Below are positions 253-15,746 of a stretch of 64,000 nucleotides of DNA, piece by piece; positions within the stretch are counted from its first letter, which is position 1, and every line of letters starts with the position of its first letter. The notes below the pieces were generated by a model. It searched no databases. It was not told the origin of the DNA and saw only the letters and a list, made by a program, of their open reading frames with translations. Origin of the DNA: Caulobacter sp. Lineage in GTDB: Bacteria; Pseudomonadota; Alphaproteobacteria; Caulobacterales; Caulobacteraceae. Both the position numbers and the translations under genes were made by a program. The DNA lies in assembly GCA_030645575.1 (NCBI GenBank), contig JAUSMJ010000004.1:1-64000 (forward strand). The letters are read 5' to 3'.

Positions 253-1281
253 CTACTCCGCCGCGACCGGCTTCTTCATCTTGTCGAACTGCGTCCACAC
301 GCCGTCCGAGCCGTGCCATTCGCCGCCCGTCGCGCCCTTGGAATATTCGGTGGCGCGCTGTTCGAAGAAATTGGCGTGCTCGACGCCGTTCAGCAAAGGC
401 GCGAGCCACGGCAAGGGATGTTCGTCGACCATGTACATCGGCTTCAGGCCGAGCTGGCCCAGCCGCCAGTCGGCGATGTAGCGGATGTATTTCTTGATCG
501 AATTGGGGGTCATCCCCTCGACCGGGCCATGCTCGAACGCCAGGTCGATGAACGCATCTTCCAGCCGCACGGTCTTCTGGCAGGCGTCGATGATGTCGTC
601 CTGGACCGCGGGGGTGAGGCAGTCGCGTTCCTTGACGAAGGCGTGGAACAGGCGGGTGATGCCCTCGCAATGCAGGCTCTCGTCGCGCACGCTCCAGCTG
701 ACGATCTGGCCCATGCCCTTCATCTTGTTGAAGCGCGGGAAGTTCATCAGCATGGCGAAGCTGGCGAACAGCTGCAGCCCCTCGGTGAAGCCGCCGAACA
801 TGGCCAGGGTGCGGGCAATGTCGGCGTTATTCTCGACGCCGAACTCCTGCATGTAGTCGTGCTTGGCCCGCATGGCCTCGAATTCCATGAAGGCGCCGAA
901 CTCGCTCTCCGGCATGCCGATGGTCTCGAGCAGCAGGGCGTAGGCGGCGATGTGGATGGTCTCCATGTTGGCGAAGCTGGAGAGCATCATCTTCACTTCG
1001 GTCGGCCGGAACACGCGGCCGTAGCGGTCCATGTAGTTGTCCTGGACCTCGATGTCGCCTTGCGTGAAGAAGCGGAAGATCTGCGTCAGCAGGTTGCGCT
1101 CGCGGTCGTTCAGATTGGCCGCCCAGTCCTTGCAGTCCTCGCCCAGCGGCACCTCTTCCGGCATCCAGTGGACCTGCTGCTGGCGCTTCCACATGTCGTA
1201 GGCCCACGGATAGCGGAACGGCTTGTAGGCCGCCGAGGGGGTGAGCAGGCCGGGCAGGATCAACTTGGACGAGGCGGTCAC
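253..1281 (-). CDS. nrdB: Class Ia ribonucleotide reductase beta subunit
   Basis: This is the small, radical-bearing subunit that works with NrdA to reduce ribonucleotides for DNA synthesis. I chose the GTG at 1281 (342 aa) because a GGAG lies nine bases upstream; the open frame continues further but that extension looks non-coding. The diiron/tyrosyl-radical core is visible as E107-T-I-H110-IAA-Y114, matching the E-x-x-H-x-x-x-Y arrangement of the family, and a later RDESLH supplies further metal ligands. No ATP-cone is present. Its partner nrdA lies about 12 kb away, so the genes are not an operon. A pair of NrdR-box-like palindromes lies 75-120 bases upstream. Confidence 0.95.
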   Translation of the reverse strand: MTASSKLILPGLLTPSAAYKPFRYPWAYDMWKRQQQVHWMPEEVPLGEDCKDWAANLNDRERNLLTQIFRFFTQGDIEVQDNYMDRYGRVFRPTEVKMMLSSFANMETIHIAAYALLLETIGMPESEFGAFMEFEAMRAKHDYMQEFGVENNADIARTLAMFGGFTEGLQLFASFAMLMNFPRFNKMKGMGQIVSWSVRDESLHCEGITRLFHAFVKERDCLTPAVQDDIIDACQKTVRLEDAFIDLAFEHGPVEGMTPNSIKKYIRYIADWRLGQLGLKPMYMVDEHPLPWLAPLLNGVEHANFFEQRATEYSKGATGGEWHGSDGVWTQFDKMKKPVAAE

Positions 1282-1355
1282 GGTGACGAACTCCGGACGG
1301 GGGCGGACGAGAATCGAGGCAGGCGCGTTAGGATGGACGACCGTATCAAACTGCC

Positions 1356-1402
1356 ACGACACATCTAGTGGCCATGCTGACGCAACCCACAAGATGTTGT
1401 GA
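1356..1402. promoter_or_regulatory. Two NrdR-box-like palindromes upstream of nrdB
   Basis: Two 16-bp sites start at 1356 and 1387, 31 bp apart. The second, CCACAAGATGTTGTGA, matches the NrdR consensus (aCaCwAtATATwGtGt) at about 12 of 16 positions. The first, ACGACACATCTAGTGG, is weaker but keeps the ATcTAGTG half. NrdR usually binds two boxes spaced about three helical turns, and the same arrangement recurs upstream of nrdA. They lie between nrdB and the divergent GST gene and could affect both. Confidence 0.75.
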
Positions 1403-1418
1403 GATTGTGGATAAGATC

Positions 1419-2081
1419 ATGAACCAACCGTTGACCGTCTATGGCGCCCTGGGCTCGGGCAGCGTGCCCGTCGAGGCGGCGCTGACGCTGATCGGCCTGC
1501 CCTACGCGGTGGTCGAGGGGGCCACCTGGGAGCATGACCCGGCGGTGTTGGCCCGGGTCCGGGCGGTCAATCCGCTGGTCCAGATCCCGGCCCTGGCCCT
1601 GCCGTCGGGGGAGATGCTGACCGAGAGCGCGGCCATCCTCATCTGGCTGGCCGACGGCTATCCGGAGGCGAGGCTGGGTCCGGCCGTGGGCGACCCGCGC
1701 CGGGGCCAGTTCCTGCGCTGGATGACCTACATTCCGGCCTCGATCTATTCGCTGTTCTGGGTCCGCGACGTCCCCTCGCGCCTGGCTGGCCCCGATCCGG
1801 CCCAGGGCGAGCGGATCAAGCAGGCCACGGCCGAGCGTATCGCCGATTGCTGGCGCATGATGGACCGGCAGATCACCCCGGCCGGCGACTATCTGCTCGG
1901 CGACGACCTGTCGGTGCTCGACCTCTACGTCGCCGTGGTCAGCCGCTGGGGGCCGGGCCGCAACCGCTTCTACCGCGAGGCGCCGGGGATGGCGCCGGTG
2001 GTCCGCCGCGTCGATGCCGACCCGCGCCTGGCGGACTTCTGGGCGCGACGGTTTCCGTTCGCGGAGGGCTGGGAGCGATAG
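1419..2081 (+). CDS. Glutathione S-transferase family protein
   Basis: The 220-aa protein has a GST layout: an N-terminal thioredoxin-fold segment beginning with a typical beta strand (LTVYGALGS), a cis-Pro region (VQIPAL), the ESAAI glutathione-binding motif near residue 70, then an all-helical C-terminal domain. The family conjugates or reduces substrates with cytosolic glutathione; the substrate cannot be told. ATG 1419 is preferred over upstream ATGs, which lie inside the NrdR boxes. It is divergent from nrdB, and the Shine-Dalgarno is weak. Confidence 0.85.
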   Translation: MNQPLTVYGALGSGSVPVEAALTLIGLPYAVVEGATWEHDPAVLARVRAVNPLVQIPALALPSGEMLTESAAILIWLADGYPEARLGPAVGDPRRGQFLRWMTYIPASIYSLFWVRDVPSRLAGPDPAQGERIKQATAERIADCWRMMDRQITPAGDYLLGDDLSVLDLYVAVVSRWGPGRNRFYREAPGMAPVVRRVDADPRLADFWARRFPFAEGWER

Positions 2082-13602: not shown

Positions 13603-15471
13603 CTACTGGCAGGCCAGGCACTCGTCGTAGTCGGTCTTTTCGCCGGCTTCGAAGCTGTAGGTGTCGAGCGTTTCGGCGCCGGCGTGGCTGGCGCGCTGCA
13701 CCGACTTGGAGCGCAGGTAGTAGAGGCTCTTCATGCCCCGCTCCCACGCCTGCCAGTGCAGCATGTGCAGGTCCCACTTATCGACGTCGCCGGGGATGAA
13801 CAGGTTGACCGACTGGCTCTGGCAGATGTCCGGGGTGCGGTCGGCGGCCAGCTCGACCACCCAGCGCTGGTCGATCTCGAAGGCGGTCTTGTAGATGTCC
13901 TTCTCGTCGTCGCTCAGGCAGTCGAGATGCTGCACAGAGCCCTCGTTGGCCAGGATGCTGTCCCACACCGGCGGGGTGTTGGCGCCCTTGGTCTCGAGCA
14001 GGCGCTCAAGGTAGGGGTTGCGCACCGCGAAGCTGCCCGAGAGGGTCTTGTGGGTGTAGATGTTGGCCGGGATCGGCTCGATGCCGGCGCTGGTGCCGCC
14101 GCAGATGATGCTGATGCTGGCGGTCGGGGCGATGGCCAGCTTGTGGCTGAACCGCTCCATCACGCCGCGCTCGGCCGCGTCGGGGCAGGGGCCCTTCTCC
14201 TCGGCCAGCTTGACCGACGCCTTGTCGGCCTCGCGGCGCAGGTGTTTGAACAGCCGCATGTTCCACGACTTGGCCAGCGCGCTCTCGAACGGCACGTTCT
14301 GGGCCTGCAGGAAGGTGTGGAAGCCCATCAGGCCCAGGCCGACCGAGCGTTCGCGCTGGGCGGCGTAGATGGCGTGCCTGGCGTCCTGCGGCGCGCGCTG
14401 GATGAAGTCCTCCAGTACGTTGTCGAGGAAGCGCATGACGTCCTCGATGAACCGCGGCTCGTCGCGCCATTCGAGGAAAGTCTCGGCGTTGACGCTGGAG
14501 AGGCAGCAGACGGCGGTGCGCTCATTGCCCAGGTGGTCCTTGCCCGTGTGCAGCATGATCTCGCTGCACAGGTTGGACTGGCGGACCTTGAACCCGAGCG
14601 CCTTCTGGTGCGCCGGCATGGCCTTGTTCACGTGGTCGGCGAAGATCAGATAGGGCTCGCCGGTCTGCAGCCGCAGTTCGAGCACCTTCTGCCACAGGGC
14701 GCGGGCATCGACCTCGCGCAGCACTTCGCCGGTCTTGGGCGAGCGCAGGCCGAACTTCGCGCCGTCGCGGACTGCGAACATGAACTCGTCGGTGATCGAG
14801 ATGCCGTGGTGCAGGTTCAGGGACTTGCGGTTGAAGTCGCCCGAAGGTTTCCGGATTTCCAGGAATTCGTCGATCTCGGGATGGTGGATGTCGAGATAGA
14901 CCGCGGCCGAGCCCCGGCGCAGGCTGCCCTGGCTGATGGCGAGCGTGAGGGAGTCCATCACGCGGATGAAGGGGATGATGCCGCTGGTCTGGCCGGCGCC
15001 CTTGACCTTCTCGCCGATGCTGCGGACGCCGCCCCAGTAGGTGCCGATGCCGCCGCCGTTGGCGGCCAGCCAGACGTTCTCGTTCCAGGTCCCGACGATG
15101 CCGTCGAGGCTGTCGCCCACGGCGTTGAGGAAGCAGCTGATCGGCAGGCCGCGGTCGGCGCCGCCGTTGCTCAGCACCGGCGTGGCCGGCATGAACCACA
15201 GCCGGCTCATGTAGTCGTAGACCCGCTGGGCGTGTTCAGCGTCGTCGGCGAAGGCCGTGGCGACGCGGGCGAACATGTCCTGATAGGACTCGCCGGCCAG
15301 CAGATAGCGGTCTTCGAGCGTGGTCTTGCCGAACTCGGTCAGAAGAGCGTCGCGGCTGCGATCAACCTCGACCTTCCGCACCAGCGCCAGCTGGGGTTTG
15401 TCGCCCCCGAGCCAGGCCGTGTCGCCGGCCGCCTCGCCGAGGGGAATCTGCCTTGCCGCTTCGCCCATCAT
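13603..15471 (-). CDS. nrdA: Class Ia ribonucleotide reductase alpha subunit
   Basis: The 622-aa catalytic subunit shows the active-site set: Cys113 (ISCFLN), the N300-L-C302-S-E304 triad with the thiyl cysteine, the redox partner in C322-C323-LSSVN, and a C-terminal ECLACQ supplying the shuttle cysteines. Unlike E. coli NrdA (about 760 aa) it lacks an N-terminal ATP-cone, so the usual dATP on/off control is not visible. It works with NrdB encoded 12 kb away. ATG 15471 (or 15468) is chosen; two NrdR-box-like sites lie 56-103 bases upstream. Confidence 0.95.
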   Translation of the reverse strand: MMGEAARQIPLGEAAGDTAWLGGDKPQLALVRKVEVDRSRDALLTEFGKTTLEDRYLLAGESYQDMFARVATAFADDAEHAQRVYDYMSRLWFMPATPVLSNGGADRGLPISCFLNAVGDSLDGIVGTWNENVWLAANGGGIGTYWGGVRSIGEKVKGAGQTSGIIPFIRVMDSLTLAISQGSLRRGSAAVYLDIHHPEIDEFLEIRKPSGDFNRKSLNLHHGISITDEFMFAVRDGAKFGLRSPKTGEVLREVDARALWQKVLELRLQTGEPYLIFADHVNKAMPAHQKALGFKVRQSNLCSEIMLHTGKDHLGNERTAVCCLSSVNAETFLEWRDEPRFIEDVMRFLDNVLEDFIQRAPQDARHAIYAAQRERSVGLGLMGFHTFLQAQNVPFESALAKSWNMRLFKHLRREADKASVKLAEEKGPCPDAAERGVMERFSHKLAIAPTASISIICGGTSAGIEPIPANIYTHKTLSGSFAVRNPYLERLLETKGANTPPVWDSILANEGSVQHLDCLSDDEKDIYKTAFEIDQRWVVELAADRTPDICQSQSVNLFIPGDVDKWDLHMLHWQAWERGMKSLYYLRSKSVQRASHAGAETLDTYSFEAGEKTDYDECLACQ

Positions 15472-15526: not shown

Positions 15527-15574
15527 ACGCTACATCTTGTGGGCGACGCGCCCCCTGAACCCACTATATGGGGC
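15527..15574. promoter_or_regulatory. Two NrdR-box-like palindromes upstream of nrdA
   Basis: ACGCTACATCTTGTGG (15527-15542) matches the NrdR consensus at about 12-13 of 16 positions, and ACCCACTATATGGGGC (15559-15574) at about 11. The boxes start 32 bp apart, the family's usual three-turn spacing, and mirror the nrdB arrangement. NrdR would repress both genes when dATP is plentiful. Confidence 0.8.
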
Positions 15575-15746
15575 CACGAGGGCTAATGACTCGTCAACGG
15601 GGAGAAACGCCTCAGGGGCGACTTTTTCGTTAACAACATGTTGAGAAGCCCTCCGTGGGCCGCGCTTTCGCAAGGGTTTGGCAACCATTTCAGACACCTG
15701 CCGCGACCCCTCGTCGCGGACGCCCGCCCGTGGCAAGGTCTCCGCG

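Follow-up and report, generated by a model that had tools for sequence, protein, structure and literature searches.

The segment 1356–1402 of the window (the whole stretch of 64,000 nucleotides analyzed) looks like a real, conserved pair of NrdR binding sites, as judged from sequence comparison in the absence of binding data. With a probability of roughly three in four, it serves as a working NrdR operator at nrdB, accompanied by a second one at nrdA, in a regulon that also includes gcrA; directly observed are the sites, their spacing, their conservation and an nrdR gene whose product has the key residues, whereas it is inferred that NrdR binds and represses, that nucleotides govern this, and that it plays a part in the cell cycle. 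The operator at nrdB is ordinary, expected NrdR biology in a Caulobacter-like bacterium. The sites before gcrA suggest that DNA precursor supply is wired into the cell cycle.

The nrdB leader and the adjoining divergent gene comprise the following features:

253..1281, minus strand: nrdB, class I ribonucleotide reductase (RNR) small subunit (PF00268, E 6e-74; NF007186, 565 bits)
1311..1315, no strand assigned: GANTC site in the nrdB leader, located between box 2 and the nrdB start codon
1356..1371, minus strand: NrdR box 2, proximal to nrdB and weak, CCACTAGATGTGTCGT on the nrdB strand (10/16 to consensus, 13.0 bits)
1387..1402, minus strand: NrdR box 1, distal to nrdB and strong, TCACAACATCTTGTGG on the nrdB strand (12/16 to consensus, 19.7 bits)
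1406..1414, minus strand: perfect DnaA-box consensus TTATCCACA, 3 bp from NrdR box 1
1419..2081, plus strand: divergent glutathione S-transferase (GST)-like gene (PF13409, E 3e-8), possible passenger of the operator

The NrdR box is a 16-bp palindrome with the consensus ACACWATATATWGTGT. Two such palindromes 31 bp apart in the nrdB leader had been proposed by a sequence-only reading of this DNA, and both were confirmed at their positions with an offset of exactly 31 bp. They lie inside the 137-bp gap between nrdB, the start of which is most likely GTG 1281 (own reading), and the GST gene, the ATG of which (1419) stands 16 bases past the strong box. In box 2 the G that is conserved at box position 13 is missing, and only one half is good. 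The bit scores of the two boxes derive from a matrix of nrdA/nrdB boxes in which these two are included. Taken as criteria for an NrdR operator, two consensus-like palindromes (here with a weak second one), about three helical turns between the box centres (31–32 bp), an RNR gene downstream together with NrdR encoded in the genome, and retention of the pair in relatives are all met at nrdB.

The weakness of the proximal box, which contains the sequence CTAGAT, resembling an alphaproteobacterial −10 element, could be taken to mean that the two palindromes arose by chance or represent promoter −35/−10 sequence without any paired binding. This explanation is hardly tenable, since the score of the pair was not reached by any of 200 dinucleotide shuffles of the own leader, a profile built without this genome retrieves nrdB genome-wide at E 0.0011, and the spacing of 31–32 bp is kept among relatives despite drift of the spacer sequence. 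On the strength of the shuffles and of the held-out genome-wide profile, a chance origin of the nrdB pair was rejected.

Conservation of both boxes in related species, the lack of which would have refuted the sequence-only reading, was borne out at genus and order level. A 31- or 32-bp pair is present in 24/24 nrdB leaders of the genus (31 bp in 22 loci, 32 bp in 2), with each score reached by at most 1/200 shuffles; per-locus pairs were picked among spacings 30–32, and the leaders stem from 25 genus genomes, G017 being left out because its nrdB lies at a contig edge. The distal box was found, with variation, in all 24 leaders, and the sequence of box 1 is the same in the locus of a sister genome (L090). 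When spacings from 20 to 44 were compared in these leaders, the peak was at 31 bp (22/24 with a score of at least 20); we attribute shoulders at 29 bp (19/24) and 33 bp (11/24) to the repetitive consensus, which resembles itself when shifted by 2 bp. At order level, leader loci were obtained from 6 of 15 genomes with an nrdB match, and five of the six carry a 31/32-bp pair (each at most 1/200 shuffles). The sixth (L107), which was excluded from the matrix, has no convincing pair (score reached by 42/200 shuffles). A set of 80 named nrdB leaders, partly overlapping with the genus and order genomes, yielded 27 with a 31/32-bp pair (at most 1/100 shuffles). Of the 18 leaders bearing the name Caulobacter, Caulobacteraceae or Caulobacterales, 17 are among them, as opposed to only 10 of the 62 others, mostly sphingomonads, for which an arrangement of nrdB after nrdA remains unchecked. 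One record (L049), titled Pseudanabaena biceps, contains an alphaproteobacterial-type nrdB (79 % identity) and is probably a mislabelled or contaminated assembly.

The genome encodes the cognate regulator: an nrdR gene, the absence of which would likewise have spoken against the sequence-only reading, was found with TIGR00244 (171.5 bits, cut-off 124.65). Its product matches PF22811 and PF03477 as well as TIGR00244 above the cut-offs (zinc ribbon and ATP-cone), represents the one ATP-cone match found, and matched five PDB sequences, all of them NrdR; the flanking frames are glyA and ribD/ribE by our own reading. The protein carries D15, R17, R26–R29 (RRRR motif) and R37, i.e., positions reported as DNA contacts of NrdR in the available text of PMC9110341, and Q in place of R12 of the S. 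coelicolor NrdR. According to the same partial text, dATP/ATP-loaded NrdR tetramers bind two boxes and repress, ATP alone leads to a dodecamer without DNA binding, and NrdR is described as RNR-specific (PMC9110341). As far as the accessible part of PMC12051234 goes, spacers of 15–16 bp occur in most bacteria, the measured NrdR preference is for 14–17 and 24–27 bp, and these two lengths correspond to three or four turns between the box centres. The spacing at nrdB fits this measured preference, which counts for an operator.

The second pair is located upstream of nrdA:

13603..15471, minus strand: nrdA, class I RNR large subunit (NF006577, 1020 bits)
15527..15542, minus strand: NrdR box proximal to nrdA, CCACAAGATGTAGCGT (pair profile E 5e-9)
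15559..15574, minus strand: distal NrdR box of the nrdA pair, GCCCCATATAGTGGGT, at 32 bp from the proximal one
15588..15592, no strand assigned: GANTC site farther upstream of nrdA than the distal box

The distance of about 12 kb between nrdB and nrdA given in the sequence-only reading is correct (12.3 kb from nrdB start to nrdA stop), and its suggestion that shared sites keep the split enzyme in step is supported by the presence of an own pair at nrdA. In 25/25 nrdA loci of the genus, the best pair (picked among spacings 30–33, no shuffle control) has a spacing of 31 or 32 bp and a similar place, and it is there regardless of the nrdA–nrdB distance, which differs widely between genomes. Best pairs in five order-level nrdA loci occur at scattered positions.

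A 47-position profile was constructed from 19 nrdB and 18 nrdA pairs, with both the own genome and the relative nearest to it in nrdA/nrdB identity withheld; the bit matrix, in contrast, contains the window's own nrd boxes. In the own 3.2-Mb genome, the profile ranked nrdA first (E 5.1e-9) and nrdB second (E 0.0011); the third match has an E of 0.49. These are the three matches up to E 10, with 150 of 856 first-look candidates scored (150 per genome in all whole-genome searches). The other held-out genome (G011) gave nrdA at E 5.5e-9, nrdB at 0.06 and a match before gcrA at 0.24. A single-box pattern scan was uninformative (11 matches vs 9 control matches).

Apart from these loci, the genomes offered several further candidates. 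One contig of the own genome (G000:C53; L159:811 onward; L082) harbours a gene related to B12-dependent class II RNR (32 % to NrdA, class by own reading); nrdJ was rejected as a regulon member, since no pair was seen upstream of this class II-type gene and none was retrieved by the profile. A second nrdA-like NrdR pair (L195:1034–1080, G001:C20; profile E 1.8e-4) is located near a frame read as KatG, has no clear target gene and looks like a copied nrdA upstream region. Weaker paired matches (L211/L212 and L213/L214) lie upstream of a frame read as ParA (two genomes) and near a small frame that looks like a complex I accessory subunit. These and other weak profile matches (L196/L203, L199/L200, L201, L209) were set aside, as they fall inside coding frames or are common to only two genomes.

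In 23/24 genus loci, the gene diverging from nrdB is GST, and alignment puts the GST start 5–30 bp from the distal box; its promoter should therefore overlap the operator, and NrdR probably blocks GST too. The adjacency and the inevitable overlap of any nearby promoter with the operator would also agree with GST being targeted by NrdR in its own right, through selection for common regulation with nrdB, e.g., for thiol supply or protection of the reductase. We regard such selection as possible, on balance rather doubtful, since the pair is equally present in one genus locus (L110) and in 5/6 order-level loci where no GST was found beside nrdB, so that the boxes track nrdB. Moreover, family models identify the gene as no more than GST-like, and a sigma-70 scan of positions 1200–1500 returned no site on either strand, which is uninformative for both genes. 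GST is thus a likely passenger of the nrdB operator; its control by NrdR is plausible and unproven.

Two further signals, missing from the sequence-only reading as is gcrA, adjoin the operators. GANTC, the CcrM methylation motif, is found in 24/24 genus leaders in the stretch from the proximal box to the nrdB start (−17 to −52), vs 20.6 % of shuffled tails, and at −110 to −140, just upstream of the distal box, in 17/25 genus nrdA loci (no shuffle control). GcrA acts at methylated GANTC sites in Caulobacter, and GcrA is encoded in the own genome. The sequence TTATCCACA is the DnaA-box consensus; in the nrdB–GST regions of the genus it is perfect in 5/24 and has at most one mismatch in 12/24, vs 2.3 % of shuffles, and 8 of these 12 near-perfect boxes stand 3–6 bp from the distal NrdR box. 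Control of nrdB by GcrA via GANTC is unreported in the main text of PMC3667746, which contains none of the nrd terms looked for.

The third match of the profile in the own genome (C19:379–404) is located upstream of gcrA (C19:455; identity by PF07750); being a single box at E 0.49, it is not significant alone. With a matrix of 118 nrdA/nrdB boxes (73 distinct) that includes no gcrA site, three NrdR-like boxes were recognized at this promoter, the last two of them 41 bp apart:

L210:288–303, position −167: gcrA NrdR-like box, 10.7 bits
L210:349–364, position −106: gcrA NrdR-like box, 9.5 bits
L210:390–405, position −65: gcrA NrdR-like box, 18.7 bits

Of the 20 profile-match stretches fetched, i.e., the own one and 19 of the extra matches in the genus, stemming from 18 further genomes, 9 are gcrA promoters by mutual similarity, and G011:C39:7280 also maps to a gcrA promoter by coordinates. 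Among the first 31 gcrA promoters, pairs with a sum of at least 20 are spaced by 41 bp in 19 and by 62 bp in 16, with 0/907 composition-matched windows at either spacing; 31-bp pairs are few (4/31 at sum 20, vs 0.9 % of control windows). The control windows were cut from the DNA on either side of nrdB and consist mostly of coding sequence. Another forty promoters of the order were selected, with their DNA still unseen, among the 118 genomes that gave a match, so as to represent different genera. Three belong to the same genus, 17 to other genera of the family and 20 to four other families; 33 of the forty have a pair at 31, 32, 41 or 42 bp, peaking at 31 bp (20/40).

Both sets can be described by one grid of positions 0/31/62/103, i.e., steps of 31, 31 and 41 bp corresponding to 3, 3 and 4 helical turns. 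At least three of the four boxes are present in 48/71 gcrA promoters of the order, as compared to 0/907 windows and a mean of 2.9/71 for 20 random grids on the same DNA; the grid was read from the same data on which it was counted. All four boxes are kept in 10/71 promoters, and the Caulobacter loci L215, L216 and L235 have a degenerate second box. In L235, the array is situated between gcrA and the start of a divergent frame of 273 aa that is permease-like by own reading, with smaller mechanical frames overlapping the array. The steps of 31 and 41 bp agree with spacings that NrdR is known to accept.

Since related genomes are not independent, the best answer comes from a class-level set with one genome per family. 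The gcrA locus was obtained from 28 of 30 genomes with a GcrA match, and one (L293) was too short and dropped. In the remaining 27 promoters, each from another family of the class, the most frequent spacing is 31 bp (11/27, next 4/27), and 13/27 have a 31/32-bp pair, vs 0/353 windows of the same loci and 0/1350 shuffles. The other 14/27 have no such pair; a lack of NrdR does not account for the missing boxes, since NrdR was found in 27/28 class genomes, and G186, where it was not found, has a completeness of 75 % and does carry the pair before gcrA. The spacings of gcrA sites fall into one helical phase in all three sets (mean resultant 0.88, 0.90 and 0.65, with related loci counted repeatedly). 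The C and G of the box are retained in 88/88, 95/103 and 35/43 sites; as both weigh in the matrix, their retention is not independent evidence.

NrdR might nevertheless be confined to nrdA and nrdB, with the gcrA boxes bound by some other factor recognizing similar AT-centred palindromes or belonging to CtrA/DnaA parts of the promoter. A CtrA-like motif (TTAAC-N6-TTTAC) indeed overlaps the third gcrA box, a CTGTGGACA site lies between the boxes, and the gcrA promoter of C. crescentus is activated by DnaA and contains one DnaA box, according to the part of PMC3193534 available. This explanation is considered unlikely, since the palindromes match a matrix derived from nrd promoters only, are spaced by 31 and 41 bp, and show the 31-bp spacing again in other families of the class. 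Measured by the criteria for an operator, gcrA thus fulfils those of box sequence (agreement with the matrix from nrd genes alone) and of spacing (31–32 or 41–42 bp) and fails that of an RNR gene downstream. For this reason we propose that gcrA represents a novel type of target for NrdR rather than a standard RNR operator. Direct control of gcrA by NrdR in much of the Alphaproteobacteria, via a phased array of up to four boxes and, together with the GANTC sites of the nrdB leader, as part of a loop between dNTP supply and cell cycle, appears fairly probable to us, without any binding data at hand.

For the proposed regulon, one may envisage that plentiful dATP would lead to dATP/ATP-loaded NrdR tetramers that bind both nrdB boxes, bend the DNA and shut off nrdB, probably together with the overlapping GST promoter. 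By means of the second operator at nrdA, the two subunits of one enzyme would be set by one sensor despite their separate genes, and NrdR at both sites would constitute a feedback on dNTP synthesis. At gcrA, repression may be exerted via the array of 31-, 31- and 41-bp steps; this S-phase regulator would be held down at high dATP and released once replication consumes the dNTPs. GcrA could then act on the GANTC-bearing nrd leaders, closing a putative loop: the supply of dNTPs would gate the cell-cycle program, which in turn would drive dNTP synthesis.

If NrdR does repress gcrA, the dATP sensor of bacteria has a direct line to a master regulator of the cell cycle. The available text of a 2025 Caulobacter paper leaves undefined how replication initiation is delayed when dNTPs are raised, and it suspects that initiation is connected with stalked-cell differentiation in a way likewise undefined (PMC12186491). 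A dATP-sensing repressor on gcrA represents a concrete candidate for this delay, but the double mutant speaks against the simplest version: deletions of nrdR and fssC are synergistic for soft-agar hyper-spreading of C. crescentus (PMC12186491), and NrdR acting on gcrA therefore cannot be the simple cause of the high-dNTP delay. GcrA is not mentioned in the searched text of that paper.

NrdR pairs before nrd genes are established, and regulons have been predicted in bulk: the main text of PMC5343134 reports 186 NrdR regulons in 20 regulogs of Proteobacteria by comparative genomics. This main text does not contain nrdB and the site tables lie outside it, so that an earlier listing of gcrA cannot be excluded. 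In the literature searched, which does not extend to site tables and subscription papers such as the original NrdR regulon paper of 2005, one paper naming both GcrA and NrdR mentions them without connection, and another that contains both names (PMC2500167) is on E. coli DnaC. No text was found there in which COG5352 (gcrA) appears together with NrdR.

Compared with known systems, as far as described in the accessible parts of the sources, the nrdB operator resembles those of E. coli nrdHIEF and S. coelicolor nrdRJ (PMC9110341, PMC12051234) in having two 16-bp palindromes, a 15–16 bp spacer, an RNR gene downstream and NrdR encoded. It differs from both in that nrdA and nrdB form separate units with an own operator each, and in that the operator at nrdB is shared with the divergent GST and adjoins a DnaA-box match as well as a GANTC site. 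For the promoter of the same gene gcrA in C. crescentus, the available text of PMC3193534 describes DnaA activation via one DnaA box and reports no NrdR input. The closest likeness to the gcrA array is provided by Streptococcus nrdHEF/nrdDG and Listeria nrdAB, with spacers of 25–26 bp (four turns) or more than two boxes; these multi-box sites serve RNR operons in the part of PMC12051234 at hand, whereas the array described here serves the gene of a cell-cycle regulator.
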